Assembly (NCBI GenBank): GCA_013306675.1
Contig: JABLUY010000019.1
Span: forward strand, 124,001-188,000
Length of the DNA stretch: 64,000 nt
Direction: 5' to 3'
Origin: Thraustochytrium sp. TN22
Taxonomy: Eukaryota; Sar; Bigyra; Thraustochytrida; Thraustochytriidae
The first letter of the stretch is position 1; each line of letters opens with the position of its first letter. The translations under genes and the position numbers were made by a program. The notes under the pieces are model-generated. The model saw only the letters and a program-made list of their open reading frames with translations. It had not been told where the DNA came from and did no database searches. Shown here piece by piece: positions 36,962 through 60,252 of this stretch.

Positions 36962-38143
36962 ATGAAGGCGGGCTTTGTGGACGCGCACCTGTACACGCGG
37001 CGGTACCAGCGCAACAACAAGCGGTCGGGCCTGAAGAACCTGCGGTGCTTCCCGATCTGCTCGGATGAGCACAAGCTGCGCGGGTTCTGCGGGCGGCCGG
37101 CATACCTCGAGGTGGAGAACCCGGACGGCAAGCGGCTTCGCGTGGTGGCGGAGTTCGTGAAGCTGCCGAACAAGGGCGACGCCGAGCCCGGTCTGCAGCT
37201 CGAGGAGATTGTTACCAAGGCGCGTATTGCGGACAACCTGCGCACCAAGGCAGAGCAGTTCAACCCGTGGCTCGAGGGCGAGCTGGAGGATGGCGCCGTC
37301 GTGACGGACGCGAGCAGCCCGTGCTTCGTGGTGAACAAGGCCAAGCGTGGCTGGCACTACGCGTGGGTGGCCAACAAGCACACGTGCGAGAGTGAACACG
37401 TGCTTCGTGCCTACGTCTTCGAGGAGACCCCGGCCGGCGCCTACCGCGTCATCATGATCGCCGACACGCCGTCCTTTACGCTCTTCTGCCGCCGCCGCCA
37501 GCGCCAGAACCTGGAGCGCCTCCCCGCGCAGCTCAAGATGCAGCTCGAGCTGCAGGACGAGTTCAAGCGCTCCCGCAAGGCCGTGCCCAAGTCCATTCCA
37601 GTCGCCAAGGACCGGCCTCTGGCGCTCCTCAGCCCGGCCATGCTGCGCATTGCGTCCTCCGTTGCGCCGCCCACGCTGGCGGCTGTCCTCGCGTCCGCAG
37701 ACCCTCTCCAGGAGCTGCAGCAGCACCTGCAGCAGCAGCCGCCGCTCCTGCCGCCGGCCTCGTCGCTCATGAACGGCGTAAACAGCGCCTCGTCGCGCAA
37801 GCGCCAGCAGCGCTCCGGCGGCAACAGCGTGCGCGCCACCAAGCGCGCCCGCGCCTCGCTCTCGGACGACCACGACTCGCTCCTTGGAGACGCGCACCAG
37901 TACGATATGGACGACGACACCTTCGGCACGCTCTCGAGCCTCGAGGACGGCCACGATACGGATGTCCTGGATGGTATGATGTCCACCGTCAAGGGCGAGC
38001 CGCACTATGATGCCGAGTCCGCGCTCTGCTGCCCGCACCCGCACGCCCATGCGCACCCACAGCGCCGCCAGGCCGTGCCGCCGCCGCTGCCGCCTCGCAA
38101 CCTCATGCTCGACCTCGGCGCCATCGACACGGCCGCGCGCGAG

Positions 38144-38178
<35 letters not shown>

Positions 38179-39832
38179 CCCTGAGGAGCTGCCGGCCGCG
38201 CCCGGCTCCCCCGTCGGCGTCGTGGTGCCGCCCACCACGCTCGAGCAGCGCCGCACGCTGCTCTATCACGTGCTGCGCAGCCTTCTGCGTCTGGACATCA
38301 AGTCCTGCACGCCGCTCGCGGACCTGGCCGCCGAGAACAAGGGCGTGCAGCTCCCCGGCTCGCACGATGCCACCTCGGTCATCTCGGTCGACGACTTCGC
38401 CCGCAACATCAACGAGTGCATGGACTTTTTCAGCACACAGAGCGACGACGCCGACCATGTCGCCGCCTCGGCCGACGGCGACAACGACTCGCTCTATGGC
38501 GGCGCCGACCGCGGCAGCATCGCCAACGACCTCGCTAGCCTCGACGACTTTCAGCCGCTTGACATCGACTTCTCCGTGCTTGATCACGTGCCGGTCGGTG
38601 CGCCTCCCGGCGCCTCGCTCAAGTTCGTGGACATCATGAAGGACTTCGCCTACTTCCTCATCGACGAGCAGGAGTTCACCAACACCATCAAGTCGGCGCT
38701 GCGCGGTGCCAGCCTCAACTGCGACTCGTCCAGCCACTCCTCGCTTGCACTCTCCATCCTCCTCGACCTGCTCTGCAAGTTCCTCATGCGCTACCGCATC
38801 AGCATCGACGAGCTCTACTACCTCTTCAAGACCCAGGTCTGGAACAAGGACAGCGGCACCACCTCTGCGGCCGCTGCGGCCGCCGCCGCGGCGGCCGCCG
38901 CGCACTCGTCCTGGAGTGGCGCCGCCGCGGCGGCCGCCTCTGCCTCGGGCGAGCCCATGCGCCCGTCCATCGAGGCCGAGCGCAGCTTTAACGCCAACAT
39001 CATGCACTACACCAACACCTTCAAGACCATGGCCGCCACGGCCGCCGCCGCCGCTGCGCGCGGCCGCTCCAGCAACCTCATCAACCCCAACAAGGCCGCG
39101 CATCAGAGCCCGCGCTCCGTGCTCGAGCTCGATGCCCTGACCTTTGACGCCACGGCCTCGCCGCAGTCCTTTGGTCCTGAGGTGCCCACTGCCGAGCCCG
39201 ATGGCGCCAAGATTCTCTTCTCGCTCAGCAACGAACTCGTCTTCGTGCCGGACCGCGACCCGCGCAACAACCTCACTGGCGAGTGGGTGCGCTTGCCCGA
39301 GTCGCTCAACGTGCTCGAGAGCATTCGCGAGGCTATGGGCGTCCCCTTCATCCTTCGCCGCATGACGCGGATGATGGAGACCAACCTGACCATGTCGCAC
39401 TCGCCCGGCGCCCTCGACACGGTCTGCAGCGCCAAGCTGTTCTCCTCCGGCTTTCAGCGTTACATTCTCGATGGCAAGGAGCACCGCTGGGACGTCCCGC
39501 CCCCGCTTCCCATGGAGCGGCCGCAGAACCACGCCAAGTACACCGCCACCCTCAAGGACGGTTGCCTGCGCCTCGTCATTGTCTACTCGCGCCGCAAGCG
39601 TCTGGTTCGCGAGTCCACCAAGTCGCCCTGCGACACGCGCCTGGACACCGTCGTGCGCTTCCAGTTCCGCGAGGATTCCAAGCACCCCTGGGTCACCAAG
39701 CTCTGCTCCAAGACCTGCGCGATCCGCAAGTCTCACTACAATGCTCACGAGGCAGCCGACCTTGGCGACGCTGCCAACGACGACCTCGTCTCTTGGCTTC
39801 CGGCACCCTGTGACTTCTCCATGAGTCTTTGA
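36962..39832 (+). CDS. orphan protein with FABP/calycin-like C-terminal domain
   Basis: The protein has 956 residues, starting at an ATG with ACG before it. I do not recognise the full architecture. Residues about 20-180 form a beta-rich, Cys/aromatic-rich domain (KNLRCFPICSDEHKLRGFCG, FVVNKAKRGWHYAWVANKH, YRVIMIADTPSFTLFCRR). A disordered middle follows, with a KRQQRSGG...KRARA basic patch (nuclear-localisation-like), His/Pro and poly-Gln. Residues about 425-630 are helical (TLLYHVLRSLLRLDI, FVDIMKDFAYFLIDEQEF, LLDLLCKFLMRYRISIDELY). Residues about 770-915 follow the fatty-acid-binding-protein/lipocalin pattern: LTGEWVRLPESLNVLESIRE, AMGVPFILRR, an ILDGKEHRW strand and ATLKDGCLRLVIVYSRRKR. 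The layout suggests a ligand-responsive nuclear regulator, but that is inference. It converges on hybrid kinase 1. Confidence 0.85.
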
Positions 39833-40193: not shown

Positions 40194-42773
40194 TCAGGCA
40201 GCCCTGAATTTGGAGACCGCATTGTCAATGGCAGTGAGGAGGATGTCGCGCTTGACAGGCTTGATAAGATAACTGTCGCACCCTGCCTCGAGGCAGGCGT
40301 CGAGCTCGCGAGCCTGAGTGAAGGCGGTGAGGGCGAGCACAGGGATGCGGGAGCCGAGCGAAGTCTCGCCGGAGCGTATCCTGCGCGTGGCCTCGAAGCC
40401 GTCCATGACGGGCATTTGGAGGTCCATGAGAACAATGTCAAAGGCATCGTGGCCCTGTGACTCGATGGCGTCCACAGCCTCCTGGCCGTTCTTGGCGAGA
40501 GTGACTTTCATGTTGGCCCGCTCCAGAAAAGTGGTCATGATCACCTGCAGGAGCTGCGTGTCCTCGACGAGGAGCACGCGGAGTCCCTTCAGGCAATCGC
40601 TGGCCTCGCTGCAGGCGCCAAGCGAGGGCCGACGCTCGCGGGACCGCGCCTCAACTTGCTGCACCGGCTCGACTTTCCAGGCTGCCGGGCAAAGCGCAAC
40701 GGGCTGCGCCGTGGGCAGCAGCGGCCGCGAAGACTCGTGCACCGGGAGTGGCAGGTGCAGCGTGAAGGCACTGCCGACGCCAGGCTCCGACTCAAGCGTG
40801 ATGGAGCCGCCAAAGAGCTCAAGGCCGTCGCGGCAGAGCGTGAGACCCAGGCCCGGTCCGCCCTGCTTGCGCGCGTAGGAGTCGTCACAGACCTCAAAGG
40901 CCTCGAAGATGCGCGCCTGGTCGGCCGGCTCGATGCCTACGCCGTAGTCGCGAATCTCCACAACGATTTCGTTGAAGAGAATCTCGTCGTGACGCTTTGT
41001 GTCGCTCTTGTTGTGCATGGACGACCCAGACTTGCGGGACCGCGGCGGCGGGGACTTGGAGGGCGAGTGTGCGGGCGCGTCGGCATGCGGTGGTGGCGCT
41101 GGAAGGCTGCGCTCCTGCGAGCCCCGGCGAGGGCGCGGCGCTGCTGGCGTTGACGGCGAGCAGGACTCTGGCAGGGCGGTCTGCTGCAGCGGATTGGCCG
41201 CGCGCTGCGCGGAGGAAGGTCGACGCCGGGGCATGGCTGCGCCCAGCAGGAAGAGGCTCTCGTCAACAAAGTCCTCCGGTTCTTCCTCTGCGCTATTCTC
41301 GGCCAGCTCGTCGTAGACGTCGAAGGAGCTGGACCTGCACGACATGGGCGAGGTGGACTCGCAGATGCCCGTGTGTTTCTCTTCCACGGCCGGCGCACCA
41401 CGGCTCTCGTTGAGGCTGAGACTGGCCCGGCTGCTGCAGACGTCATCCTCGCCGTCTTTGTAGGCCGGGCTGCGCGAGAACCATCCAGGCCCACTGCGAG
41501 ACACGCGAATGACGACGTCGCCGTGCTTGTGGGAGAACTTGATGGCGTTCTCGACAATAAACGAGATAATCTTGACGAGCTTGCTGCGGTCGCCCAAGAC
41601 GATGGACGGCACGTTGGGCTCGATGTTGATGAGCAGCTGTATGTTGCGCTCCGCCGCCAGGAAGCGCACCAGGCACTCGACATCGGCGAAAAGGTCCGGG
41701 AAGGGAACGGCGTCCCACGCGAAGCGCACGCCGCCCATGCGGTAGCGCGTAAGTTCGATAATATTGCCAGTGAGCTGAATGAGATGCTGCGCCGAGCTTG
41801 CCATGTCATCGAGCATCGAGTTCTGGCGCGGCGAAACGTTTGTGTCTTGCAGGACTTCGACCAGACCAATCATGGCCACGAGCGGCGTGCGCAGTTCGTG
41901 CGTCATCACGGCGAGAAAATTGGACTTGGAGCGCGCCGCCAGGTAGGTGGCGCGGCGCTCGCGAGCCAGCTCGCGGTCAAGGACGCGGCGGTCCGAGACC
42001 TCGATGCCCACGAAGACGAGGCAGGCGCCGGAGCCCTTCTCGTCGACAGGCGTGCAGCGAACGTCAAAAGTCCGCGCGCTAGACAGGCCGTAGCGCACTG
42101 AAGCGCGGAAGCTGTGTTCCTCGCGCGAGTGCAGCGCGCGCAGGAAGCCCGCCGCCTCCGGCTGGCCGGCGAAGACGTGCGCCGCGCGATCGCCGCGCGC
42201 GTTCTTGCACTGTGCAAAGACCTCCGAGAAAGTTTCGTTCGCGTACGCGATGCCGCCGTCCGCGTCCAGGCACAGGACGAACACGTCGGGTCGCGCCAAT
42301 GCCACGTCGGCGCCGATGCCCTTGGCCCTGGCCTCCTCGATGGTCGTCTCCACAGCGGCCGTCTCGGCGCGGAGGCCCACGGCATAGAACCATTGCACGC
42401 CGTCCACCACCTGCAGCGGCGTCTCCTCCCACCGCAGACAGCTGGGCGGCTTCTGCTGGCCGGGGCACGGCTTGCGCTTGGACAGCGGCGGCCACGCCAG
42501 GCCTGCGAGGGCGCACCCCACGCCCACCTTGCCCTGCGGCGCCTGGCTCCAGAAGGCCGCGTTGCCGTACACCAGCTCGCGCTCCTCGCCCGTGTACACG
42601 CACAGGGGCTCGCCGCGCGCCGCGGGCGCCTCGTCCAGCACCTTGGCCAGCGCGTCGCGCTCCGCGCGTGCCCGTCGCGCCGCCGCGTCTCCCATCCCAT
42701 CCACAATGCTGCCCGGCCCCTTTTCCACGAGCGAGACCTTGAGCGAGGCCGCCAGCGCCGCGTCGCTCTGCAT
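40194..42773 (-). CDS. hybrid PAS histidine kinase 1
   Basis: This soluble hybrid sensor kinase has 859 residues. Residues about 55-135 are a PAS-like module (PLCVYTGEERELVYGNAAFW). Residues about 160-265 are a second PAS (DVFVLCLDADGGIAYANETF). HisKA has FLAVMTHELRTPLVAMIGL with the phospho-accepting His at 292. The ATPase N box is IISFIVENAIKFS (402-414), the G1 box is RDYGVGI (608-614) and the G2 box is GGPGLGLTL. The receiver has VLLVEDTQ, phospho-Asp 784 in VLMDLQMPVMDG and Lys 838 in LIKPVK. A disordered Ser/Pro-rich stretch of about 170 residues splits the ATPase between N and G1 boxes. The chosen ATG precedes QSDAALAAS, and the upstream frame is composition-driven. A phosphotransfer partner would be needed and is not in this window. 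Confidence 0.93.
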   Translation of the reverse strand: MQSDAALAASLKVSLVEKGPGSIVDGMGDAAARRARAERDALAKVLDEAPAARGEPLCVYTGEERELVYGNAAFWSQAPQGKVGVGCALAGLAWPPLSKRKPCPGQQKPPSCLRWEETPLQVVDGVQWFYAVGLRAETAAVETTIEEARAKGIGADVALARPDVFVLCLDADGGIAYANETFSEVFAQCKNARGDRAAHVFAGQPEAAGFLRALHSREEHSFRASVRYGLSSARTFDVRCTPVDEKGSGACLVFVGIEVSDRRVLDRELARERRATYLAARSKSNFLAVMTHELRTPLVAMIGLVEVLQDTNVSPRQNSMLDDMASSAQHLIQLTGNIIELTRYRMGGVRFAWDAVPFPDLFADVECLVRFLAAERNIQLLINIEPNVPSIVLGDRSKLVKIISFIVENAIKFSHKHGDVVIRVSRSGPGWFSRSPAYKDGEDDVCSSRASLSLNESRGAPAVEEKHTGICESTSPMSCRSSSFDVYDELAENSAEEEPEDFVDESLFLLGAAMPRRRPSSAQRAANPLQQTALPESCSPSTPAAPRPRRGSQERSLPAPPPHADAPAHSPSKSPPPRSRKSGSSMHNKSDTKRHDEILFNEIVVEIRDYGVGIEPADQARIFEAFEVCDDSYARKQGGPGLGLTLCRDGLELFGGSITLESEPGVGSAFTLHLPLPVHESSRPLLPTAQPVALCPAAWKVEPVQQVEARSRERRPSLGACSEASDCLKGLRVLLVEDTQLLQVIMTTFLERANMKVTLAKNGQEAVDAIESQGHDAFDIVLMDLQMPVMDGFEATRRIRSGETSLGSRIPVLALTAFTQARELDACLEAGCDSYLIKPVKRDILLTAIDNAVSKFRAA

Positions 42774-44195
42774 CGCTCGCTGGCCTACGCCGCCGCGAGG
42801 CCGCGCTCGGGTCTGCTGGCCGGCCGCCCGGCCAGCGGAGGCAGTCAGTCGGTCGGGTCGAGCGCCCGCCAGGTTAGCCGCGCAGGCCCCTACCGCCGCC
42901 GCCGCTGCCGCCGCCGCCGCCAGCACGAGGCCCCGCAGCGCCCCGCCGCGCGCAGGCTCGCCCGCAGGGTCAAGCGGGGCTGAGCGCGCCCCGCCAGCAC
43001 CTGGCCCGCCCGCCAGCCAGCCAGCCAGGCTGCCTGCCTGCCAGCCAGCCAGGCCGCCGGAGCCAGGCAGGCCGTCAAGCGACGGGCTCGCTCTGCTCTG
43101 CGGATGGGTGAGCGCGCGCGCGCTCGAGCTTACTCCTGCGCTGCTACAGGCGCCGGAGGGCATGCCGTCGTTCGTTTCTGGCCTGGAGAGAGAGCGCCTG
43201 CGCTCGCTCGGGCCGGGGCTCACCAAGGCGAAGCCCAGTTGCTTTTCCTCGGCGCTGTGGAGGGGCTGCCCGCACAGCTGGGTTGCTTGGCAGGGGGAGC
43301 CGTAGAGGCGGCTGTGGGCCGCCCGTCGCTGTGTTGCCAAGCAAGGAGCAGATCATCTTCACACTGTTAGGACGGGAAGGGGCTGGCCAGCCAACAGGCT
43401 GGTGGACAGTGGACGACTAACTTTTGATTATTAAAAGTAGGTAGAGCGAAACAGCGACCTCTCCGCGACGAGCTATCTGCAATGCTGGCGAGGCCCTGGT
43501 GCGGTATGTCAGCGAGGGCTGCGGCCATGGACGCGGACTTGCGAAAGCCTCCTAGCTCGCTCCCGCAGCCTTCTTGCTGCGGGAGCTTTGGGAGGTTCAA
43601 AAGACTCAAATGGCGGTCGCTATTCTGAAGCTGGCTTGCTGCGGGGCAATGTTACACAACACATTTTGTGTGTTTCTGCAACTTCTTGGGGTTAACAAGT
43701 TGCCCGACTTTTGGGCTCACATGGACGGCCGCCAATTCCGCGGAGAGGCGGTCGAGCGGCGGACCTTGGATTCGCCCGCACCTCGTGGGAGTGCTGCATC
43801 CGTCCAATGTATGCGGGACCCGGCGATTGTGGTCCCAGGGAGCGTCTGGCACTGCACAGAAAGGGCATTTTGGTGGTCGCTTGCGGGCCGCGTGTATGTC
43901 ATGTGGCGGGCTGCCACATCGGCGTTGCTGGGGCGCACGCATAGGCGACGGCCAGAGAAGACATTCAGACAAGTCAGGCTCACGGGCGTAGCTCCACAAT
44001 TTTCTTCTCTCTCAAGCTTCGGATTCCATGGATGCAGCTCAGCAAAACATACATCATACTTATACACAGACCGGCAGGCCTTGCACGAATACAGATTCAC
44101 AAAATTGCAGGAGCGTGGAGGGTGCAGGAGCGTGGAGGGGGGAAGCGCGCCTCGACTTCTCTGGCTCTTCACGTTCCCCTCGTCCCTTCTTTTCT
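42774..44195. other. intergenic region between the two hybrid kinases
   Basis: This 1.4-kb gap contains the promoter of kinase 1, with CAGC/CTGC simple repeats at about 43009-43060. It also has an AT-rich ACTAACTTTTGATTATTAAAA stretch near 43416 and a block of different composition (about 43600-44000) listed as a possible retroelement fragment. No host gene is convincing. Confidence 0.5.
43652..43999 (-). mobile_element. possible retrotransposon zinc-knuckle remnant
   Basis: A minus-strand frame reads KCPFCAVPDAPWDHNRR then VPHTLDGC. This recalls the C-P-x-C...H-x-L-x-GC knuckle after the polymerase domain of many non-LTR retrotransposons. Codon use and GC are unlike the flanking kinase genes. 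No polymerase core, target-site duplication or tail is visible. It is a fragment at most. Confidence 0.25.
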
Positions 44196-46121
44196 CTAGT
44201 TCGAAGAGCCGCGACGTCTTCGCGAGTCCTCCGCGTCAGCACCATCTGCCGGAAGAGGTTCTGGCGCGTGCATGGGCGCGCCGCGATACTGCGCGATGGC
44301 GGCGAGTAGATCTTTGCGCTTCACGGGTTTGATGAGGAAGCGGTCGCAGCCAGCCTCGAGGCAGCGCTGCAGATCCGACTTGACGGCAAATGCAGTGAGC
44401 GCAACAAGGGGGATCCGGCTGCGGCCGGTGTCAGCCTCGATGGCACGGATGCGGCGCGTTGCGTCGAAGCCGTCCATCACGGGCATCTGAATGTCCATGA
44501 AAATGAGGTCGTACGGGCGGCCGACGCCGTCGCACGTGCTCTTGAACTTATTGACGGCCTCCTCGCCGTTGTCAGCCGTGTCCACGATGACGCAGGCGGC
44601 CTCGAGGAAGCGGCGCATGATGACCTGATTCACAGGCGTATCTTCAACGAGAAGCACGTGCAGCTCCTCGACGGCCTGCACGGGCACGTCCGCCTCGGTC
44701 TCGGGCGCGATCCCGACGGCCTGCTCGTGGAAGCTGGCGCAGGACGCCAGGCGCGAGAGGTAAGCAGCATCCACCTTGCCCGTCGGCAGAAAGACCGTGT
44801 CGGAGCGCACGGCAATCGGGATGACCACCCGGAAGGTGCTGCCCACGTTGAGCGTGGACTGCACGGAGAGCTCGCCGCCCAGGAGGTGCGCGAGGCGCTT
44901 GCACAGCTGCAGACCGAGGCCCGTGCCGCCATACTTGCGCGTCGTGCTGGACTCGCCCTGCGTGAATGCATCGAAGACACGCTCGATGCGGTCCGGCGCA
45001 ATCCCGATGCCCGTGTCGCGCACTTCGAGGCAGAGCGCCGCCACGGACGAAGCGCGCGACCCGCGCAGGCGCTTGCTGCGGTCCTCGGTGTTGGAGCGCG
45101 AGCGCGAGACGGTCTGAACGGGCGAGCCAAGGTTCGCGGCGCGATCCGCGAGCTCCGTGCCGGCCTCGATGCCCGTTGCGCGCAGCGTCACGCGGCCGCC
45201 CCGCGGCGTGAACTTGACGGCATTGCCCAACAGGTTCAGCAAGATCTGCGAGAAGCGGGCCTGGTCGCCGATGAGTTCCGTCGGGACGCCTTCGCCGATC
45301 TCCAGCACCCAGTCCAGCTCCTTGCGCTGCGCCGGCCCGCTGGTGATGTCGTGCACGGTCTTGAGCAGCGTGAAGATCTTCACCTCGCCCTGCTCTAGCT
45401 CCAGCTTGCCGGCTTCGATTTTGGCCATGTCCAGAATGTCATTGAGTAGCTGTAAGAGCAGCTCGCCCGAGTTTGCAATCTGCTTGAGCATCTCTAGCTG
45501 CTGGCCAGACAGCTCCGTACGCTCCATGAGCTCCGCGAATCCAAGCACAGCCACCAGCGGCGTGCGGATCTCGTGCGTGATCACTGACAAGAACTCCGAC
45601 TTGGCGCGGCTCGCGGCTTCCGCCTCGTGCTTCGCGCGCTCCAGAGCGTTCTCGTGCCTGACTCGATCCGTCACGTCAAAAGCCACGATCAGGCATCCCT
45701 GCACGCCGCCGTTGCGAACATCCGGAACCGTGCGTACCTCGTACGAGAGCGTCAGTGGCTCCCCGTCCGGGCCCTTGGCTCCGTCCGGCCGCGGTACAGT
45801 CGACCGATGCGACAGTGCCTCGCCTTGGAGGGCGCGCTCCAGCCGTGGCTCGATCACCGCCACCACCTTGCTCGGGAGCACGTCCTTGTAGTGGAGACCG
45901 AGTACCCGCGGCTGTCTCACAAAATTCCTGTACGCGTCGTTCGCGAACCGGTAGATGCCATCGCGGTCCAGGTAGCCCACCATCGCCGGCAGGGACTGGC
46001 CCGACAGCAGCTCCAGCAGCGCTGCGCGCGTCAGACTACCCGTCGTCTCCAGCCGCGGCGTCCAGAACCCGACAGCGAACGTGCGATGGTCGGCGTCCTC
46101 GTCCGGGCTCGCGTTCTCGTC

Positions 46122-46154
<33 letters not shown>

Positions 46155-46919
46155 GTCGTTCCCAGCGTCAACGTCTTCCTCTTCGAGATCTTCATCACAG
46201 CTTGAGCCGCCCGCCTCGTTCACGGTTGGTAGCACCTCGGCGTCGCTCATTGACGCGCTTCGCGCGCGCCGCCTGCCAGGCTGCTGCGATGCCGCAGCCA
46301 CGCCAGTGCTGGTGCTTGAGCTGCTGGAGGATGATCTGACGCTGGCCTGCAGCGAACTCCCGGGCACACCGAGAAGCTCCTCCGCCGCGGTCGGCGGCAC
46401 CACATCAACCTCGACCTTGACGCTGCTCGCGTCATCGGCGCCAAGGCTCTCGTCCAGGTTCACCTTGGACATGAGCATGCTGCCCACGCCGTCGCCCATG
46501 TCATCCTTGTGGTCGTCCAGGCCGAGCTCCAGTCCGGGGTCCAGGGAGGTGGCCTGGCCCCCCGTGCCGATCTCGTACCATGCAAAATTGTCCTGGCCGC
46601 CGATCATCGGCCAGCCGGCGTCCCTGAGCGACTTGCCAATGGCCACTGTGTCCGTCAGGTTGCGCTTTTGCACCTTCTCCCAGAAGACGCGGTTTCCCCA
46701 CTCCAGCGTCTTGCCCTCGTCGCGCTTGTACCGGCACATGGGCACGCGTGCGCCCTCCAGCGCGCGCGCCATCACATTCCTGTGCGCGCGGAGCCTGCGC
46801 ACCTCCGCCTCCAGCGCCTTGTTGCGCGCCTCCAGCCGCTTCACCATCCGCTCCGCGCGCTCGGCGCGGGCCCGCGCGTCCGCGTCCGCGCCCGCGTCCG
46901 CGTCCATCCCCTCGTGCAT
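44196..46919 (-). CDS. hybrid PAS histidine kinase 2
   Basis: A 907-residue hybrid sensor kinase related to the gene upstream in the window. A short coiled coil (about 15-45) leads to a PAS-like module (PMCRYKRDEGKTLEWGNRVFW, about 60-120) that matches the N-terminal module of kinase 1. An acidic/Ser linker follows, then a second PAS (about 305-420: AMVGYLDRDGIYRFANDAYR). HisKA has FLSVITHEIRTPLVAVLGF with His 449. The ATPase shows LLNLLGNAVKFT, VRDTGIGI and YGGTGLGLQLCKRL. The receiver has VLLVEDTPVNQV, phospho-Asp 809 in IFMDIQMPVMDG and Lys 864. No membrane segment is present. The ATG precedes HEGMDADAGADAD, and the longer frame upstream is Arg-rich leader with a CCGCG run. Confidence 0.94.
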
Positions 46920-47105
46920 CTCCCCCGTGCGTTCAAACGCGCCGCCCGCCGATCCCGGTTCCCCGCGCGCGAGCGACCGCGGCCAAGCGATCCCCTCCCA
47001 GACCGTCGGCCCTCGCGCCCGCGCGCCGCGCCGCCGCCGCGCGCCGCCGCCGCGCGCCACCGCCGCGCCGCGCCGCGCCGCGCCGCGCCGCGTCTTCCGC
47101 GTTTG

Positions 47106-47148
<43 letters not shown>

Positions 47149-48772
47149 GCCGCCTGCCTGCTAGGCCGCCTCCTCGCCGCCCCGGCCGCCCCGCAGCCTC
47201 GCAGCTGCGGTGGGTCGCCCTCCGCCTGGCGCGCGCGGCCCTGCTTCCGCAGCCCCCGCAGCCGCGCGGCTGTGGAGGGGCGCCCGCGCCGCAGCGGCGC
47301 CGCCACTGGCCCCTGCCGAGCCAGGCACCGCGCGTCTGCGACTTGGCCTTGGGCAAGCCAAGTCCAGCTCAGCGCGCGCGTGGCTTCCCGGGTCGGGGCG
47401 CGTGGGCGCTGCTGGCAGCCGGTCACGGCCAGCCCCCTGCGCGCAGCGCCAGCCTGAGCGCGCGCGCGGCGCGAGCTGGCGCCAGCCGCGGCTCCTTGCT
47501 CGCTTGCTCGCTTGCTTGCTTGCTCCGCCTGCTTGCTTGCTCGCTTGCTTGCCTGCTTGCTCGTGCTTCAGTTGCTCGGCACCGATCGGGCTGCGCGTGT
47601 CGCGCCCGGGATGCCGCTGGCTTGCCGCGCGGAGCTGCTGGTGGGCGGGCTGGCCGCCGGTGGGCAAAAACAGCTTCTCCTGGCCGGCCGGCCGCAGCTG
47701 GCCGCCCTCGCGGAGCGGGAGGAGAGGCCACGGCGCGCCGCGCAGCCTGGACGCGCGGCAGCCTGACTCTCCGAGACCTCTCCGAGGCAGGCGAGGGAGG
47801 CTCTGCCGCCAGCGCGACCCGGAGGCGTGACTGGCCAGGACGCGGCTGCAGTGCCGCTCGTGATCGCAGGCCGCGCGATCACGAGCGCCGGCGCACCCAG
47901 CGCGGCCGCCAAGCGAGGCGAGGCGAGGCGAGGCGAGGCGAGCGAGGTGAGGGCTGAGCCAAGCCTGACTGCTGGGAAGAAGAAGCTCAGCAGGCCCGCA
48001 GCGGCCGCGGCCTCCGGCTTCGCGCTCGCCGGTGCTGGCACGGGCGCGCAGCTTGCGCGCTTCCGCCGGCGCGAGCGCCGCGCCGAAGCTGCGCGAAGCT
48101 GCCTGGACCTACGCGGACCTGCGCGGGGGGAGCTAGCTGCGTGGCTCGGCGCCGCCCCGGCCTTGGCAGCTCCGTGCGGCTCGAAGCTGCGTGGCGCGGA
48201 GCTGCCCGCGCCGCGCCGCGGCCTTGCTTGCAGAGCGCAGACGGCCAACAATGCAATGCCGAGGCCAAAGCGCCGGTGCCGCGGACGCCCCACTGCGGAC
48301 GCCCGGTGACGGCACGCCCGCCACTCCGAGTTACCCGCCGCCGCCCGCGCCGTTACCCTCAGCTCGCTCGCCCCGGCCGGCCGCGGCGCGGACGCTTCGC
48401 GCGCGGCGGCGCCGCCGGCGCGCTCTTCGGTTGACACCACGAGGCCAACGCAAGGCAAATCAGCGCCAACGCCGCCAAGCGACTAGCAGGAACCACCTCA
48501 CTCATCATCACAGTCTGCTGCCTCGCACCTGGGACCACCGCAGCTGAGTGACCGCCAGTGGGACGCGGCCCCCGCCGGGTGACCGCCCCGCGGGCACGGC
48601 CCGCGCGCGCGCCGCGCCGCGGCCGGGCGCGAGGCGGGCCAAGAAGCGGCCCACTCGCCTACGAGGCGCCGGTGGCGGCGGCGCAGGCGCGCTGGGACCA
48701 GAGCCGCGCGGGCTCGGCGCGGCGCGGCGGCGCTAGGCGCGGCGAGGCGAGGCGCGGAGGCTGGCGGGCAGC
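46920..48772. promoter_or_regulatory. long divergent intergenic region
   Basis: This 1.85-kb gap separates the divergent kinase 2 and zinc-finger genes. It holds a CCGCG tandem (47063-47093, about 145 bp before the kinase 2 ATG), a CTGC array (47105-47150) and CTTG/CTCG words (about 47500-47565). GGCGC words sit just before the zinc-finger ATG. Open frames here are Arg/Ala/Pro-rich without domains. Promoter content is inferred from position. Confidence 0.45.
47105..47150. repeat. CTGC tetranucleotide array
   Basis: About 11 CTGC units lie next to a CCGCG pentanucleotide run, about 190 bp upstream of kinase 2. A near-identical array sits upstream of the TIR/HET-TPR gene. Confidence 0.9.
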
Positions 48773-49654: not shown

Positions 49655-49799
49655 GCTGAGCTGTGAGCTTTGGCTGCGCCATGCTGTCGCCGTGCTCGCG
49701 AGGTAGCAAACAAACAAACAAAACAAAACAATGTGTATTGATCATCATCATCATCATCACCACGCGCGGACTCGGCCTTTCTGTCTGGCCGCCGAAGCA
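49655..49799. other. convergent 3' region with ATC repeat
   Basis: This short convergent gap contains AAACAAAC/AAACA repeats and a CATCATCATCATCATCAC microsatellite near 49742-49760. Both are likely within 3' untranslated sequence. Confidence 0.5.
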
Positions 49800-51620
49800 T
49801 CACTTGGCGTGGTCGAGTCTGGCTCGACAGAGGTCCGCGGCGCGCTGGACGACCTTGGTCTTCCAGTGGTCCGCGCCCAGGACCTCCTTGTAGATGCTCA
49901 AGGCGTCCTCGTAGGATTCGAGCGCGGCATCAATCTTGCCGAGGCGCTTGAAGGTGCTAGCAATGTTGGTGAGGGTCTCGGCCACCTCCGTGTGGCGCTC
50001 ACCGTGGACTCGGCGCTCGATGTCGAGCGCCCTGCCAAAGTACTGGACCGCCTCCTCGTAGCGCCCCTGAGCCTTGTAGACGACGGCGATGCTGTTCAGC
50101 ATGTCCGCGACGGTGCCGTGGGCCGGACCGTAGACCGCCCTGTAAATGGCGAGCGCGTCCGTGTAGTGTTGCAAGGCCTCGTCGTGGAGGCCTTGGGCGT
50201 CGTAGATGGTACCCATGGTCCCGAGCGCGGCGGCCACGTGATGGCTCCGCGGGTCGAAGGCCTCTCGGTACATGTCGAGCGCCTCGTCGCAGGTGCGCAT
50301 TGCATCCTCGTAGCGGCGCAAATGCTCGTAGGTGACGGCCATGCGGTGAGCAATGGCGGCCACGGTGGCGTTGCGCGGGCCGAAGAGCGTCCGCGCCACG
50401 GCGAGCGCCTCTTCGTACAGCTGCAGCGCCTCGTCATATCCCGCCTGCTCGTCCAGCAGGTTGCCGAAGTTCTCGAGCAGCGGCAAGAGGTCCTCCTGCG
50501 CCTCGGCGCCCTGTGCCCGCAGCTGCTCGATGCGGCTACGCGCGATATCCATGAGCCAGGAGCGCTGACGGCCCTGCACCTCCATGTTGAGCGCCGTGTA
50601 GCCGCCCTCGACCTTGTCCTGCACCGCCTTGTCGATCATGGCCTTGTCCTCAGGCTTGCAGCACAGCGCCTTGCGCATGTCCATCTTGTCGGCCATGGTG
50701 GCGCCGACGGACGCAGAGTCCTCGCAGAGCTGGTGCAGAAAGGCGTCCTGCTGGCCCGGCGCATAGACCACCTCGAGCGGCTTGCTGCTCGTGGCGGCGC
50801 CGTAGATCTCCCACACGCACCACGCGCGCTGCAGCGGCGCCGGCTCGTCCCACCGGTCGAAGAAGACCACGGCCTCCTCGAAGCGGTCAATGGCGGTGTG
50901 CAGACCGCTGCGCACGATGCGCTCGCGAGCTTGCACCATTTCTTCCGCAACCCCGCTGTCGCTGCTCGTGAGCAGCGGCTGATTTGCGCAGAAGACGTCC
51001 AGCCACACGAAGCGCTGCTCGGCGCGCTTGCCAGCAAAGTGGTCCGAGAGCGCCGCCACGAGGTCCGAGAACCTGCAACTGCGCGCGTGGCTCACGAAGC
51101 TGCCCTGGTACGCCTGGCCCACGCCGCGCTTGCCCACGGCGTTGAGGTAGAACTGCTTGCCGGCCGGCATACCGCGCGTCGCGGCCATCACCACGTAGGT
51201 CGCCACATCCTCCGTGGTCCACTCCCCGCGCGCCTTCTCCTGCGCGTCCTCGCCCGCGCGGAACCGCACCGTCCCGCTCACAAAGGGTACGCGCCCCACG
51301 CAGGCGCCCTTTCTGCTCGCCTTGACCAGCTCGATGGTCGTGCCCTCGGGCACCAGGTCGCTCAGGTCGCGGCTCGCTACGAAGAGCCGCACCCCCTTGG
51401 CCAGTTTCCCGGCCAGCACCCGCGCCAGCACGGACTGCACCGCGTCCACGCTCACGCTGCGGTAGTCGATGATGCTGCTCTCCTCCTCCAGCGGCTCATG
51501 ATCCTCCAGCAGCTGCTGCTCGTCCAGCTGCTCGCCCTCCGCCGCCGCTCCCTTGCCAGTCGCTTGCCGCGACCCCACGCTCAGTCGCAGGCTCGTACGG
51601 AGCGCCTTGAGCGTGGACAT
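49800..51620 (-). CDS. TIR/HET-like domain fused to kinesin-light-chain-type TPRs
   Basis: The protein has 606 residues. Residues about 170-300 contain a module with SFVSHARSCRFSDLVAAL, RFVWLDVFCANQ and RAWCVWEIYGA. In protists this module commonly stands before TPR or other repeats and is loosely related to TIR or fungal HET domains. Residues about 380-600 hold about five 42-residue TPRs of the kinesin-light-chain kind (LGTMGTIYDAQGLHDEAL, LNSIAVVYKAQGRYEEAVQY, LTNIASTFKRLGKIDAALES). KLC-type TPRs bind peptides, so the protein may be a signalling adaptor or immune-like sensor. That is inference. There is no kinesin-light-chain heptad region, so it should not be called a kinesin light chain. 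The ATG precedes STLKALRTSL; a hydrophobic stretch lies upstream in frame but has no ATG. Confidence 0.85.
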   Translation of the reverse strand: MSTLKALRTSLRLSVGSRQATGKGAAAEGEQLDEQQLLEDHEPLEEESSIIDYRSVSVDAVQSVLARVLAGKLAKGVRLFVASRDLSDLVPEGTTIELVKASRKGACVGRVPFVSGTVRFRAGEDAQEKARGEWTTEDVATYVVMAATRGMPAGKQFYLNAVGKRGVGQAYQGSFVSHARSCRFSDLVAALSDHFAGKRAEQRFVWLDVFCANQPLLTSSDSGVAEEMVQARERIVRSGLHTAIDRFEEAVVFFDRWDEPAPLQRAWCVWEIYGAATSSKPLEVVYAPGQQDAFLHQLCEDSASVGATMADKMDMRKALCCKPEDKAMIDKAVQDKVEGGYTALNMEVQGRQRSWLMDIARSRIEQLRAQGAEAQEDLLPLLENFGNLLDEQAGYDEALQLYEEALAVARTLFGPRNATVAAIAHRMAVTYEHLRRYEDAMRTCDEALDMYREAFDPRSHHVAAALGTMGTIYDAQGLHDEALQHYTDALAIYRAVYGPAHGTVADMLNSIAVVYKAQGRYEEAVQYFGRALDIERRVHGERHTEVAETLTNIASTFKRLGKIDAALESYEDALSIYKEVLGADHWKTKVVQRAADLCRARLDHAK

Positions 51621-51761
51621 GTGCGCGGACAGAACCCGCTGTACTGTCAGGACGGCCAGGACAAGGCTTGCCACGCCGAGCTTGCCGTGGCAAGGCAAGG
51701 CCCTGCGAGCCGAGGCAAGGCAAGGCCTAGCGAATGCTGCGGCGCCTTTGCTGGCCGGCGG

Positions 51762-51805
<44 letters not shown>

Positions 51806-52883
51806 CAGCCGAGCGCGAGAGCGAGGCGCCGAGGCTCGAGCCAACTCGGAGCGAGCCCAAGACCCTTTGACGGTCTGTTGGCTCGAGAGCGGGTGAGCAC
51901 GCTGCGGCTGCGCCGCTGCGGCACGACTGCGGCACGCGCCAAATTTTACGCAAGCCGCCACTACATTCACAGCAACTGGCGAGGAGCGAAGTGGTTGTTA
52001 GCACTGGAGGGAAGCCACGGTGTGCGCGGTCTATGGCCGCGGCCACGGCCGTCGCTCTTTAGTAGGTTAGCTAAGATACCCAAGAGCGAGGGGAACCTGA
52101 CACTGACAATGAGGCCGCGTGAGGCCGCTGCAAGGCTGGCTCGTGGCGCGGTGCGGCGGCTCGCGGGCCGCTGGCCCCGAGAGCGTCCGCAAGTAGCTGT
52201 CGGTCTTGAGCGTGCCGGGGTGGCACATCCCTGCATGGCATGTGTCATACTTTCATCTTCCGAGTCTCGCTCCACCTGATGCAGTGGTTTTACTACTGAC
52301 TTGTACTACTTCTGGCACCACGCCGGCAGGGCCCGGCAAGCTGAGGCTGAGCGCCGCCGGTCGCGCCGCCAGCGGCCAGCATCGTCAGCGGCCGATGGGT
52401 TGCGCGGGAGCCACCCACCCGCTCTCCTCTGCAATGCTGTCTTTGGGAGGCCACAAGGCACGCAAGGCACGACGCACTCGTTGATACTAGGAGGTCGCAG
52501 TGTCGCACCCAGGTACCATGGTGGTACCAACGGGTACCTGGTACCAGGGGTAGCACCACAAGCGTTTTCTCGTGCGGCACGAAGCATTTGTTTGCAGGAC
52601 ACAAAGCACGACAAACCCCTTGTCTGGGTATCGTTAGGCTGGGTATCGTTCGGTATCAACGTACCAGGTACGAACCACCACGTGAAGAAACCCGTCTTCT
52701 CGTTTGGCTGCCTCGGCTCTGGGTCATCGTTCATCGCAGAGCTGACAGCTGCACATCGTTTGATCAGAGAGATAATGTAAAAGAGTCCGTCTTGTCGTTG
52801 AGCTCGCTCGCTCGCTCGTTCGCTCGACGTCCCTTCATTCGTCATTTGCTTCTCGCTTCCGCAGAGGTGTGTCTATGATGGCA
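51621..52883. other. intergenic region with CTGC array and GGTACC palindromes
   Basis: This 1.26-kb gap between two minus-strand genes holds a CTGC array (51761-51807) and a run of GGTACC words (52507-52555). In that run CCAGGTACC at 52509-52517 and GGTACCTGG at 52533-52541 form a 9-bp perfect inverted repeat. More ACGTACCAGGTACG follows near 52661. I see no gene. Confidence 0.5.
51761..51807. repeat. CTGC tetranucleotide array
   Basis: About 11 units, 140-190 bp upstream of the TIR/HET-TPR start. It has the same unit and a similar length and promoter distance as the array before hybrid kinase 2. Confidence 0.9.
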
Positions 52884-54338
52884 TCAGATGCGGTTGCCAA
52901 GCTCCTGGCGGTAGGACTTGAGGATGTCGACAAACTTCATGGTGATGGCGCCCTCGCTGTTGATGACATCGTCGATGCAGTTGACAGCCTTGAGCTTGAT
53001 GTCGTCAGGGAAGCTGAAGACGACGCAGAGGCGGGAATCGGCGAGAACGTTCCAAATAATCGCGCCTTGCACGAAGAGGGAGTTGATGCGGTTGGCGTTC
53101 TCGTACTCGGGCGCGGCCGAGTGCTGCGTGGTGCTGAGCGCCATGATCATGGCTGCGACCTTGCCGACGGCGGGCTTCGCCTTTGAGCCGTATGGAAGCG
53201 CAAGCGTGGACTTGGCGAGCTCCTTTCGGCGACGGTTGCAAATGAGGACGAGGTCCTGGTCCTTGGAATCCTCCCAGCGCTCGCGGTAGTAGAGCATCTT
53301 GGTATCCTTGTCCGGCATGTCGTCGGTAAGCGGGGTGATCTCAACGCCACGGATCGAGTACAGGCGCTGCTGCGTGGCCGTATTGGAGAAGGACTCCCAG
53401 AAGAAGTCGGCCAGCGAGGCGGCGTCGATGCCGGGGAAGAGCACATCCACGCGCACGTTGAGGCGGCGGCGCGGCTTGGCGTCTGGGTCGAGGTCCGGCG
53501 CGGCCGGGCCCTTGGCGGACTCCTTCTTGACCGTGCCGTACTCGTCAATGAACTTGTAAAACACAGAGAGGTTCTGGTACGGCAGGTCAGCCTCGAGCGG
53601 CACGGTGGCCTGCTTCCAGTTGTCCGCCTGGCTCTGCGACACGAGGCCCAGCACGTGCGCCTGCGCCGTGTCCGCGCCCTGCTTGTAAATGGCGTGCCGC
53701 GCGTTTACTGACGAGGGCGCGCCTTCGCTGAGCCGCTTGAAGCACGCCACGAACCGCTTGTGCTCCTCAAGCTGCGCGCGCAGGAGTTCGTTCTCGATGC
53801 GCATGTCTGTTGACCCTTGCTCGCGCAGGCTCTCCACCTTGAGCTGCAGCTCGCCGATCTTGGCCAGGAACTGAGACCGCTCCTCGCGCAGCCGCTCGTT
53901 CTCGTCGCGAAGATCCTCAAGCTCGCGCTTTCGCCGCGCGCGCGACATGCGGCTGGCCGCCGCGATCTGCTTGCGCCGCTTCGCCTTCTTCTCCGCGTCG
54001 TCCTCGTCGCCGCCGCCGCCGCCGCCGCCGCTCCCGCTCGCCTCGCTCGCGGTGCGTTCCACGCGCGTCGCCTTGCGCGTCGGGCGACCGCCGGCCGCCG
54101 TCACCTTCGGCGCGCCGGGCGCCACCGGCGGCGCGCCCAAGTCATCGTAGCCCTCGCTCGACGCCAGTCGCAGCGGCTGGCCGCCCTGCGCGCTCGGGTC
54201 GTAGTACTGCTGCTGCGGCTGGCCCGGCGGCTGGCCCATGGGCGCGCCGTGGCCGCCCATGGGCTCCTCCAGGAACATGCCGCCGCTGTCCGTCACCACG
54301 CCCGGCAGCAGCAGGTCGAACTCGAACAGGTCCCCCAT
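52884..54338 (-). CDS. bZIP transcription factor fused to a START-like domain
   Basis: The protein has 484 residues. The N-terminus (FEFDLLLPGV) is acidic/aromatic, activation-like. The basic region is KRRKQIAAASRMSRARRKRE (120-139). It is followed by a zipper with heptad residues L143, L150, F157, L164 and L171, which continues as a coiled coil to about 200. The spacing from Ser-Arg (132-133) to the first Leu is canonical. However, the near-invariant Asn of the basic region is Ile (125). Residues about 290-475 look like a START-type lipid-binding fold (LNVRVDVLFPGIDAASLADF, LYYRERWEDSKDQDLVLIC, GAIIWNVLADSRLCVVFSF). This would be a ligand-sensing factor in the manner of plant HD-ZIP START proteins. 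Altered bZIP basic regions are known in oomycetes. A poly-Gly run lies before the basic region. Confidence 0.88.
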   Translation of the reverse strand: MGDLFEFDLLLPGVVTDSGGMFLEEPMGGHGAPMGQPPGQPQQQYYDPSAQGGQPLRLASSEGYDDLGAPPVAPGAPKVTAAGGRPTRKATRVERTASEASGSGGGGGGGDEDDAEKKAKRRKQIAAASRMSRARRKRELEDLRDENERLREERSQFLAKIGELQLKVESLREQGSTDMRIENELLRAQLEEHKRFVACFKRLSEGAPSSVNARHAIYKQGADTAQAHVLGLVSQSQADNWKQATVPLEADLPYQNLSVFYKFIDEYGTVKKESAKGPAAPDLDPDAKPRRRLNVRVDVLFPGIDAASLADFFWESFSNTATQQRLYSIRGVEITPLTDDMPDKDTKMLYYRERWEDSKDQDLVLICNRRRKELAKSTLALPYGSKAKPAVGKVAAMIMALSTTQHSAAPEYENANRINSLFVQGAIIWNVLADSRLCVVFSFPDDIKLKAVNCIDDVINSEGAITMKFVDILKSYRQELGNRI

Positions 54339-57213: not shown

Positions 57214-60200
57214 ATGGCGTCGCGGCGCGCGGCGGCGGCAGGCGACGAGGCGCTGGAGTCGGGCGTCTTTACTGCCGACGCGCTGCGCGACCTTGCAGAG
57301 GCGCTGCCGGAGGAGAACGAGCACGATGCACGCGAGGCCGATTCAAGGTACGCCGCCGGGCACGACAACGAGGACGAGGACGACGGCGAGGACGACGAGG
57401 ACGACGAGAACGAGGACGGCGTGAGCATCGGTAATGATGATGACGACGATGACGACGACGACGACAACCACAACGGTGGGGATGAGGACGACGAAGGCGA
57501 GGGCCCGCTCGCCGGGCTCGCGCGCAAGGCACTCGAAGTCGTGACGGAGCGCGAGGGCAAGGCGTCGATGGACGAGTGGGGCCAGCGGCGCGCGTTTGGG
57601 AGCGTCGGAGAAGATGCCACGCTGGCGCCGGCCGTGCAAGCTTTCCTGGCAGCGCTGCCAGAGCTGCCCAACCCCAAGGGACTCACCGGAAAGCTCAAGA
57701 CCTTCGTGCAGACGCTGCAGGCGTTCTACGTCGACGAGGTTGACCCGGGGCTCGACATGAAGGGCCATCGCATGGCAGCGCGTACCTTTGCCGGTGCGCT
57801 CTCCGCGACCGTGCCGGCTACTGTGCAGGGCGGCCAGCGCGAGGGCGCGGCGCGCGTCGTGGACTTCGTGTGCGTGGCGCTCCTAGCCGCGCACGACAAC
57901 AGCGAGGACCCCGACTTCCTGGGCTCTGTCACGTACCTAGACCTCTGGCTGCGCAACGCGGAGCGGCGCAACCACTTCTCGCGCGCCTTCGCGCCGGCCG
58001 GCGCCACCACGCGCAGGCTCCAGGATGAGATCAAGAAGCGCCGCGACGCCAACACGCGCGACAAGGACAAAGCCAGGGCGAGCCGAGAGCTCGCACTCAC
58101 CGCCATGACGGCCGACCTCATCGAACCCGTCTCGGCCGGCGTGCTCGCGTTGCTCGCGGAGCTCGAGCCGGCCGCCGAGGACCGCGCGCGCCGCGACTCC
58201 GTCGTCGCCGCCATGCAGGCGACCCTCACGCCCGCGGCGCTGCAAGCCGCGCTCGCCACGCTCGACCCGGAGGCGCCCGCGGACGCGCTCTCGGAAGAGG
58301 CCGCGCTTGGCGACGGCGAGGAGCCCGAGCCCATCGGCGTGGCCATCTTCGGTTCGGCCGCAAGCGGGCTCAACTTCCGCGCGTCCGCGGACGTCGACTT
58401 CTCGCTCGTCGGCGTAGCCAGTCGTTTGGCGCTCGTCGCCGGCCGCCATAGCGCCGCCGTGGCGCAGGAGCGCGCGCACAGCCGCGCCATCGCGCTCGCT
58501 GCCTACGTGCTGTCCGAGTCGGACGCCTTCCTCATCCAGGACATCATTCTCACCTCGCGCGTGCCCATCGTCAAGTGCGTGCACCGCTCCACCGGCGTGG
58601 CCTGCGACGTCGCCTCCGGCAACACCATCGCTCTGCAGAATACGCAACTGCTGCGCGCATACAGCCTCATTGACGCGCGCGCGCGCGCGCTCATCTACGC
58701 GGTCAAGTTCTGGGCCAAGCGCCGCGGCATCTGTGATGCCTCGCTCGGAACGCTCTCTTCCTACGCCTGGACGCTCCTGGTCATCTTCTTCTTGCAGCAG
58801 CGCCGCGACGCGCCCGGCGCCGCGACGGCCGCCGCAAAGAAGGGCAAGCAAGCCAAGCGCGGGGGGCATCGGCGCAAGAAGCAGGACGGCGGCGGTGACG
58901 ACGATGACCACGACGACGAGAACGACCACGATGGTCCCTCTATGAAGACCTCGGCAGCGGCCGCGGCGCACGCTGCTCTCGCACCGCTCCTGCCCAACCT
59001 TCAGGCCGAGGCGGTTCGCCGGGGCATGCGTACTGTCCTCGTCGAGATGGACGGCGAGGAGCTTGACGCCACCTTCGCCGCCGACGCGCCGCCCGGCTTT
59101 CGCCCGGATCTCAACAAGCAGGAAGTTGGCGAGCTCCTGCTTCACTTCTTCCTTTATTACGCGTACGAATTCGACATGAACAAGCACGTGGTGAGCATCC
59201 GCTTCGCAAAGCCCACGAAGCGGGGCTCGCTCGACGGCTACACCGGCGCCGAGTGGCGCCTGGCCATCGAGGACCCTTTCGAGCTGCGCCACGACCTTGG
59301 CTCCAAAATCGCCAGCAAGGAGGCCATGGAGCTCATTCTCGTGGAGCTGCGTCGCGCCGCTGCCCTCCTGCACGAGGATCTGCGCGGCGTTCCTCTGCGG
59401 GACGCCGTGCTCATGAGCAAGCCGGACGAGCCACCCGCCTTCCCGCGCCGCTGCTTCAACTGCGGCAGTGCCCACCACCGCTCCTCCAAGTGTCCCATTG
59501 GCAGCGTGCGACCTCGCGGTGCCAAGGTTTGTCATCTCTGCGGCGAGTCTGGCCACCTCATCAAGGACTGCCCGTCACGCAAGAACAAGAGGCGGGGCAA
59601 CGACCGCGGCGGCCATGGCAATGACCGCGGGAACGGCAATGATCGTGGCCAAGGCAACGATCGCGCCAAGGGTCCCGGCAACAGCAACCACAATGGCCGC
59701 CCAGACCCCAGGGCGTGCCATGTCTGCGGCGTTGTTGGCCACTTTGCTCGCGAGTGCCCGACGCGCGAGGCCAGGGAGGCCACGCGCTTCGGCCGGGGAC
59801 AAGGCAAGAGTCACGCGTCAGGCAAGAGCAACGAGCCTGCTTCCTCGCACCATGAACAGCAGCAACCAACGTCCAAGATCGACAACAAGCAGCAGGGACG
59901 GAGGCAGAACGCAAGCCAGGCGCAGAGCCAGAATCATGGTGAAGCCAAATCGAAGAGCGCCGGGAAGCCTGACAACAGCAAGAAGAAGGGCGCGGGTAAA
60001 CCCGACGACACGAAGAAGAATGACTCGGACAAGCCTGACCACAAGAAGAAGGCTTCGCCGCGTCGCTCGCAGCAGCAGCAGCAAGGCCAGCAAGGTCATC
60101 AGGACCAAAGCTCAAACGCGCAAACGGCCAAGGGCAAGACAGGTCCGAAGCCTCCGCGCGTCTGCCGCGACTGGCTTGCCGGAAACTGCCGCTTTGGAGA

Positions 60201-60252
60201 ACGCTGCAAGTTTCAGCATGTCGAAATTGACAAGCACCCACCCGGGTTCTAA
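57214..60252 (+). CDS. terminal nucleotidyltransferase (TUT/PAP family) with zinc knuckles and CCCH finger
   Basis: This 1012-residue enzyme should add untemplated nucleotides to RNA 3' ends. The Pol-beta motif is FGSAASGLNFRASADVDFSL, with GS at 380-381 and Asp 393/395. The third acid is in GVACDVASG (465). KFWAKRRGICDASLGTLSSY (498-517) and the PAP-associated IEDPFELRHDLG (685-696) are typical of TUTases and GLD-2-like poly(A) polymerases. An acidic/Lys insert (about 535-575) splits the central domain. Three CCHC zinc knuckles (747-760, 773-786, 835-848) follow, as in TUT4/7. A Lys/Gln-rich region and a C-terminal CCCH finger (C-x7-C-x5-C-x3-H, about 984-1001) are added. Uridylation versus adenylation cannot be settled by eye. 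It converges on CLP1 with 92 bp between stops. Confidence 0.92.
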   Translation: MASRRAAAAGDEALESGVFTADALRDLAEALPEENEHDAREADSRYAAGHDNEDEDDGEDDEDDENEDGVSIGNDDDDDDDDDDNHNGGDEDDEGEGPLAGLARKALEVVTEREGKASMDEWGQRRAFGSVGEDATLAPAVQAFLAALPELPNPKGLTGKLKTFVQTLQAFYVDEVDPGLDMKGHRMAARTFAGALSATVPATVQGGQREGAARVVDFVCVALLAAHDNSEDPDFLGSVTYLDLWLRNAERRNHFSRAFAPAGATTRRLQDEIKKRRDANTRDKDKARASRELALTAMTADLIEPVSAGVLALLAELEPAAEDRARRDSVVAAMQATLTPAALQAALATLDPEAPADALSEEAALGDGEEPEPIGVAIFGSAASGLNFRASADVDFSLVGVASRLALVAGRHSAAVAQERAHSRAIALAAYVLSESDAFLIQDIILTSRVPIVKCVHRSTGVACDVASGNTIALQNTQLLRAYSLIDARARALIYAVKFWAKRRGICDASLGTLSSYAWTLLVIFFLQQRRDAPGAATAAAKKGKQAKRGGHRRKKQDGGGDDDDHDDENDHDGPSMKTSAAAAAHAALAPLLPNLQAEAVRRGMRTVLVEMDGEELDATFAADAPPGFRPDLNKQEVGELLLHFFLYYAYEFDMNKHVVSIRFAKPTKRGSLDGYTGAEWRLAIEDPFELRHDLGSKIASKEAMELILVELRRAAALLHEDLRGVPLRDAVLMSKPDEPPAFPRRCFNCGSAHHRSSKCPIGSVRPRGAKVCHLCGESGHLIKDCPSRKNKRRGNDRGGHGNDRGNGNDRGQGNDRAKGPGNSNHNGRPDPRACHVCGVVGHFARECPTREAREATRFGRGQGKSHASGKSNEPASSHHEQQQPTSKIDNKQQGRRQNASQAQSQNHGEAKSKSAGKPDNSKKKGAGKPDDTKKNDSDKPDHKKKASPRRSQQQQQGQQGHQDQSSNAQTAKGKTGPKPPRVCRDWLAGNCRFGERCKFQHVEIDKHPPGF

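Follow-up and report, generated by a model that had tools for sequence, protein, structure and literature searches.

Among the described proteins closest to the gene reported here are BART (ARL2BP) and the BART-like proteins (PF11527). The likeness lies in a helical domain: the isolated domain of one paralogue of the gene, L016, exceeds the Pfam cut-off, and a profile of the family matches BART domains encoded in the same genome. Unlike in the BART proteins, the domain here follows a Cys/His domain inside a large protein of low complexity and nuclear appearance, and the copy in the member studied here has diverged too far to match alone. According to PMC6032216, BART/ARL2-GTP promotes nuclear retention of STAT3, and the same combination of a transcription factor, BART and an ARL GTPase is the logic that we propose below; STAT3, BART and ARL2 are separate proteins, whereas here the parts lie in one polypeptide, and the likeness that we draw is one of logic. 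CudA-like transcription factors, which we compared by description only, are alike in that they form a family specific to one lineage, which has a conserved core and has undergone duplications (PMC8808424 and PMC5923282), and PMC8808424 reports them only from Amoebozoa. Nuclear receptors are alike solely in the proposed logic, a DNA-binding-like N-terminal domain with a possible C-terminal ligand pocket, and show no sequence relation (the Pfam scan of our protein was empty). Among the papers listed in searches of the open-access PMC literature, none gave an account of the present family; its motif KNLRCFP did not occur, and the phrases "fatty acid-binding protein domain" and "DNA-binding domain" appeared together only in actinobacterial work.

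The gene and its paralogues

The gene lies in a window of 64,000 nucleotides, the whole stretch of DNA that was analysed, and is a 956-codon open frame without an intron, from an ATG at 36962 to a stop codon at 39830-39832 of the plus strand. G+C content is 90% at third, 65% at first and 46% at second codon positions, and the four parts of the gene tested all have a base composition of coding type; because of this third-position bias, and because the same frame is kept in paralogues, 36962-39832 is the coding frame. Its features are the following.

36962..39832, plus strand: whole gene, 956 amino acids (open frame, codon composition, paralogues in frame)
36971..37525, plus strand: N-terminal family domain, residues 4-188 (found in 23 of 23 paralogues)
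37043..37090, plus strand: zinc-knuckle-like motif RCFPxC-x3-H-x5-C, residues 28-43 (regular expression, 22 of 23)
37565..37852, plus strand: basic, nuclear-localisation-like stretches KRSRK (residues 202-206) and RKRQQRSGGNSVRATKRAR (residues 279-297), from reading the sequence
37862..37999, plus strand: acidic segment, residues about 301-346, ending in the SUMO consensus VKGE (343-346), from acidic 40-mers
38147..38176, plus strand: poly-Gln run, residues 396-405
38258..38287, plus strand: short hydrophobic motif LLYHVLRSLL, residues 433-442 (LLYH-type motif common to 6 of 23 members, among them this one)
38612..38860, plus strand: middle helical domain, residues 551-633, BART-like (PF11527) by membership of the paralogue family
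39239..39742, plus strand: C-terminal family domain, residues 760-927, a candidate FABP-like domain (12 of 23 members by profile and two by eye)

The sequence-only reading had described an orphan protein with this order of domains, and the elements it listed are found where it placed them: G-E-W at residues 773-775, S-L-N at 781-783, A-M-G-V-P-F-I-L-R at 791-799, DGKE at 837-840, KDG-C-L at 865-869 and the poly-Gln run. The order of domains was borne out and indeed strengthened by paralogues, whose existence makes the word orphan wrong. When the 37.9 Mb genome of the organism was searched with the window protein, 27 matches were obtained, corresponding to 23 genes, and four other members used as queries added none; the count is a lower bound, and the family thus has at least 23 genes. 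Iterated profiles place the N-terminal domain in all 23 members and the C-terminal domain in 12 (two further members, L030 and L033, seem by eye to have divergent copies), a profile places the middle domain in 10, and nine members carry all three. The listed elements exceed chance, as profiles built without the window protein retrieved its domains from the 23 proteins: the N-terminal domain at E = 2.2e-49 (22 paralogues, shuffles included in the search), the C-terminal domain at E = 6.4e-25 (eight paralogues, shuffles likewise included; best of 1000 shuffles of the window C-terminal part, E 0.41) and the middle domain at E 9.2e-6 (seven paralogues, picked by eye).

Outside the family, the window protein matched no Pfam model, and its best PDB sequence match of 10 had an E value of 2.7; five members searched against NCBIfam gave no match. 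Among nine other long window frames scanned with Pfam, seven are ordinary eukaryotic genes; these include genes for DNA topoisomerase I, seryl-tRNA synthetase, a DEAD-box helicase and a poly(A)-polymerase-like zinc-knuckle protein, as well as two PAS-hybrid histidine kinases with receiver domains (40194-43340 and 44196-47426, both minus strand) that adjoin the gene downstream. Two further long open frames (49731-51896, plus strand; 52884-54338, minus strand) have no Pfam match at E≤0.001.

Several members depart from the common layout. L031 (1476-5132, minus strand), which has the N-terminal domain, is possibly a membrane-anchored regulator, since close to its C-terminus lie two stretches of strong hydrophobicity, with mean hydropathies of 2.58 and 2.22. 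L026 (1325-2557, plus strand) lacks the start of the N-terminal domain, its YQRNNK part, in frame right before ENLRCFP, perhaps because the frame is broken there, because of an intron or because the assembly is wrong. In L023 (451-2526, plus strand), about 130 acidic-rich residues are inserted ahead of the last segment of the N-terminal domain, and this insert carries all three SUMO consensus sites of that protein. At two places, three family members lie clustered together: on contig C354 (including L017 and L018) and on contig C22 (L020-L022).

These three-copy clusters, together with a Cys/His motif that comes near CCHC knuckles, are what one might expect of a domesticated mobile-element protein whose zinc-knuckle-like domain was spread by transposition. 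The paralogues are very diverged, with a median end branch of 0.88 changes per column and good support for only 3 of 20 inner branches, and are thus not recent copies. Moreover, scans of the full protein, run for 11 of 23 members, gave no transposase, integrase or reverse-transcriptase match, searches with conserved peptide patterns found no relatives of the N-terminal domain in viral or prokaryotic contigs, and the whole window protein had none in phage records. We therefore rejected a transposon origin, which we consider highly improbable.

The N-terminal domain and the linkers

The domain common to all members begins with YQRNNK..G-KNLRCFP and closes with PSF-x-LFCRRRQR. In the alignment, C29, C33, H37 and C43 of KNLRCFP-x-C-x3-H-x4-FCG are invariant or nearly so, as are W131, Y133 and H146, and the one member that does not match the Cys/His pattern, L027, has one extra residue between cysteines. 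The N-terminal profile was compared with other window proteins, taken as 67 tiles, and the top two scores (25.0 and 22.8; the third was 15.9) belong to two tiles that overlap within the zinc-knuckle protein at 57214-60252. Because these tiles align on exactly the Cys/His motif, it is fair to infer that the domain holds a zinc ion. The likeness to a CCHC zinc knuckle is at motif level only, the spacing C-x3-C-x3-H-x5-C being different, and no zf-CCHC Pfam match was found in the 23 members. Its basic end, CRRRQR, together with its context, makes it a putative DNA-binding domain.

In a Pfam copy of 24,736 families, none of the 23 members had a significant match for this domain; the scan returned scattered matches to eight families, each in one member, with E values of 0.024-0.25. 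The N-terminal profile matched nothing among PDB sequences at E≤10. No p53-like, Rel or Runt Pfam match was obtained in the 23 members, and hhalign of the domain with one RelA and one Runt sequence stayed at noise level in what is a low-power comparison. The Velvet factors (PF11754) gave a chance-level match in one of the 23 members, L031 (profile positions 179-213 of 237, E 0.18), which lies at the corresponding end of the domain and is not significant. The Velvet model had no match in the organism's genome; it had none in the control genomes either, so its silence does not demonstrate absence. Given the lack of a significant signal, membership of the p53-like or Velvet families was rejected.

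The linkers of the family are rich in Ala, Ser, Pro and Gln. In these linkers, taken as everything outside the three domains, 11 of 23 members have the SUMO consensus [VILMF]KxE, with 15 sites in all, compared with a mean of 3.06 and a maximum of 10 in 1000 shuffles and with three occurrences of the reversed motif. Basic, nuclear-localisation-like stretches are present in the linkers of 19 of 23 members, a count taken without shuffle control. Such sites, stretches and linkers are typical of nuclear regulators, and the SUMO-consensus-rich linkers make it likely that the members of this family are nuclear transcription regulators; the regulator-like appearance first noticed in the single protein is thus reinforced by its paralogues. 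Pfam matches to TFIIA in 3 of 10 paralogues (E 0.0015-0.035) lie over runs of Gln, and we regard them as noise from low complexity.

The middle and C-terminal domains

Among the 10 isolated middle domains, that of L016 scored over the Pfam cut-off of 23 for PF11527, with 28.0 bits; L016 reached 26.8 bits in a genome search, and the whole protein, at 22.6, fell just under the cut-off. The genome contains 12 further BART matches, seven of which (L048-L054) formed our comparison set, with the short piece L055 and four others left out. The hhalign comparison of the ten-member middle alignment with these seven domains gave a probability of 91%, an E value of 1.1e-6 and a score of 40.9, which was reached by none of 200 block shuffles (maximum 33.7) and compares with at most 16.0 for 96 single-sequence tiles. 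Omitting L016 left a probability of 88.6% and a score of 37.3 (maximum of 200 shuffles, 30.8), and omitting the window member as well left 88.1%, a figure that comes without a null. Individually, 3 of 10 members (L025, L016 and L024) exceed 70%. The window domain alone scored 14.0, which is inside the tile noise, so its assignment to BART rests on the paralogue profile; in Pfam it matched no family at E≤10.

Other searches with this domain gave little. L025 had sub-cut-off Pfam matches to the CENP-F leucine zipper (E 0.004) and the Rrn7 cyclin (E 0.0065), and the sole PDB match of the L016 domain was ARL2BP (2k0s) at E 0.44. In the PDB, the ten-member profile retrieved no BART chain; it matched S100-A9 (E 0.015, as two weak pieces that overlap) and a mutase (E 0.65), both of which we took as chance. 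An AlphaFold model from the single sequence has four helices at low confidence (pLDDT 54.1), and a PDB fold search with it returned 47 matches, the best at E 2.2 and none informative. Judged from the L016 matches and the profile comparisons, the middle domain belongs, at the level of the paralogue family, to the BART family (PF11527, ARL2-GTPase binding). The layout had been called undescribed; this no longer holds for the middle domain, which the paralogues connect to BART.

Known BART proteins are ARL effectors, and Pfam names the family ARL2-binding, which would also suit a cytoplasmic or ciliary ARL2/ARL3 effector scaffold that is no transcription factor and whose Cys/His domain binds protein or RNA. 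Zinc-knuckle motifs are common in RNA-binding proteins, and the similar motif in the N-terminal domain fits such a scaffold, as do the two membrane-like stretches of L031. Membrane-anchored members occur among transcription factors too, however, as in SREBP and MYRF, and the enrichment of SUMO sites, the basic stretches and the composition of the linkers argue for the nucleus. We regard the scaffold as unlikely and retain the reading of a nuclear regulator with a BART domain.

The order of elements in the C-terminal domain, a G-x-W followed by two helices, then a GV..R segment and beta hairpins, resembles that in fatty-acid-binding proteins (FABPs) and other intracellular lipid-binding proteins. 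Our FABP profile, made from seven sequences of the family, retrieves FABP, CRBP and CRABP chains in the PDB. Against it, the nine-member C-terminal alignment scored 23.4, with P 0.0046 and a probability of 7.6%. The 78 aligned columns begin immediately ahead of G-x-W and stay in register across both helices and the first strands. A 14-member set scored 23.6 over 50 columns, recomputation gave 22.5 for the same nine members and 24.4 for a twelve-member set, and the N-terminal domain scored 8.7. The recomputed nine-member score exceeds the maxima of 200 column shuffles (18.5), 200 block shuffles (21.9), the shuffled FABP profile (16.6) and 67 tiles run against the FABP profile (17.2).

The same domain may instead have a non-FABP beta-rich fold that serves dimerisation or partner binding and has no lipid ligand, in an otherwise identical nuclear, BART-containing regulator. 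Throughout, the family-profile probability stayed at 6-11%. Of the single members, 9 of 12 are within the tile background (the three above 20 are the window member at 23.5, L014 and L024), and of the seven single FABPs one, CRBP1 (25.1), exceeds the reverse-test background of 18.2. Removal of the window member lowers the score to 18.6, a value reached by 2 of 200 block shuffles, and removal of L014 as well lowers it to 17.5. The FABP N-terminal signature (a PROSITE pattern) occurs in 0 of 23 members. FABPs have a C-terminal Arg-x-Tyr carboxylate clamp; in the nine-member alignment, inspected by eye, R-x-Y is not a conserved column, and invariant Arg residues stand at 880 and 883 instead. There is no significant homology to FABPs, nor is there a match to the lipocalin/FABP Pfam families PF00061 and PF14651 in the window protein (E≤10) or in 14 C-terminal domains (E≤1), for which Pfam gave one match, at E 0.17. 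Of two C-terminal profiles run against the PDB, one found nothing and the other one enzyme in two entries at E 2, with no FABP or lipocalin. Two lipocalin Pfam models found no gene in the genome, although the second matched in 0 of 14 control genomes, so that absence is not shown. Secondary-structure propensities give about seven or eight short beta segments, not ten, and an AlphaFold single-sequence model of residues 760-927 was unusable (pLDDT 31.6).

What speaks against a non-FABP fold is that the FABP alignment is in register and that, with the window member included, even the recomputed 22.5 is above the block-shuffle maximum. In addition, the nine-member profile scored 14.3 with beta-lactoglobulin and 15.1 with PR-10, and the propensities after G-x-W are those of two helices followed by beta segments. 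We would put the non-FABP fold a little short of an even chance. As to the FABP-like C-terminus proposed by the sequence-only reading, the in-register alignment beats 400 shuffles with the window protein included, but the low probability and the missing Pfam and PDB matches count against it. The resemblance is only suggestive; for the FABP fold itself we see about even odds, and binding of a lipid by the domain is less probable than the fold.

A possible mode of action

Our preferred reading, to which we give a probability of about 0.5, is that the gene is one of at least 23 that encode nuclear regulators resembling transcription factors, with a built-in BART domain gated by an ARL-type GTPase and some of them perhaps lipid-sensing, in a compact eukaryotic genome that may be that of a labyrinthulomycete-type stramenopile. 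The N-terminal domain would hold zinc and read DNA, probably making contact through the RRRQR end and the loop YQRNNK..KNLRCFP. The acidic and Gln-rich linkers would activate transcription by recruiting the transcription machinery, under regulation by SUMO. By binding a GTP-loaded GTPase of the ARL2/ARL3 type, the BART domain would set nuclear retention or activity, the BART and STAT3 logic being, by analogy, transferred to one polypeptide. Where present, the small, beta-rich C-terminal domain would add a ligand input, possibly lipid, through what may be an FABP-like pocket. Because 9 to 11 of the 23 members do without this domain (two of them being judged by eye), we picture it as one interchangeable input among several that would serve the common N-terminal domain. 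Binding of zinc, DNA, GTPase and ligand is in each case predicted from sequence.

A bolder and rather doubtful extension is that these proteins constitute an undescribed class of transcription factors that has expanded in one protist to 23 genes or more, each chain combining its own BART receptor for an ARL GTPase with an FABP-derived lipid pocket. They would then be an analogue of the nuclear receptors assembled from unrelated parts, in which lipid state and GTPase-driven cargo release are turned into gene expression.

A family of 23 regulator-like members whose N-terminal domain has no significant Pfam match would be a sizeable missing piece of this lineage's gene control. The fusion of BART to a putative DNA-binding protein would make the reported effect of BART/ARL2 on STAT3 nuclear retention a switch that is built in and open to direct testing. 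Should the C-terminus be a lipid pocket, ligand-gated transcription factors would have arisen independently in this lineage, and if in addition the organism is an oil-rich thraustochytrid, these would be of practical interest for lipid production.
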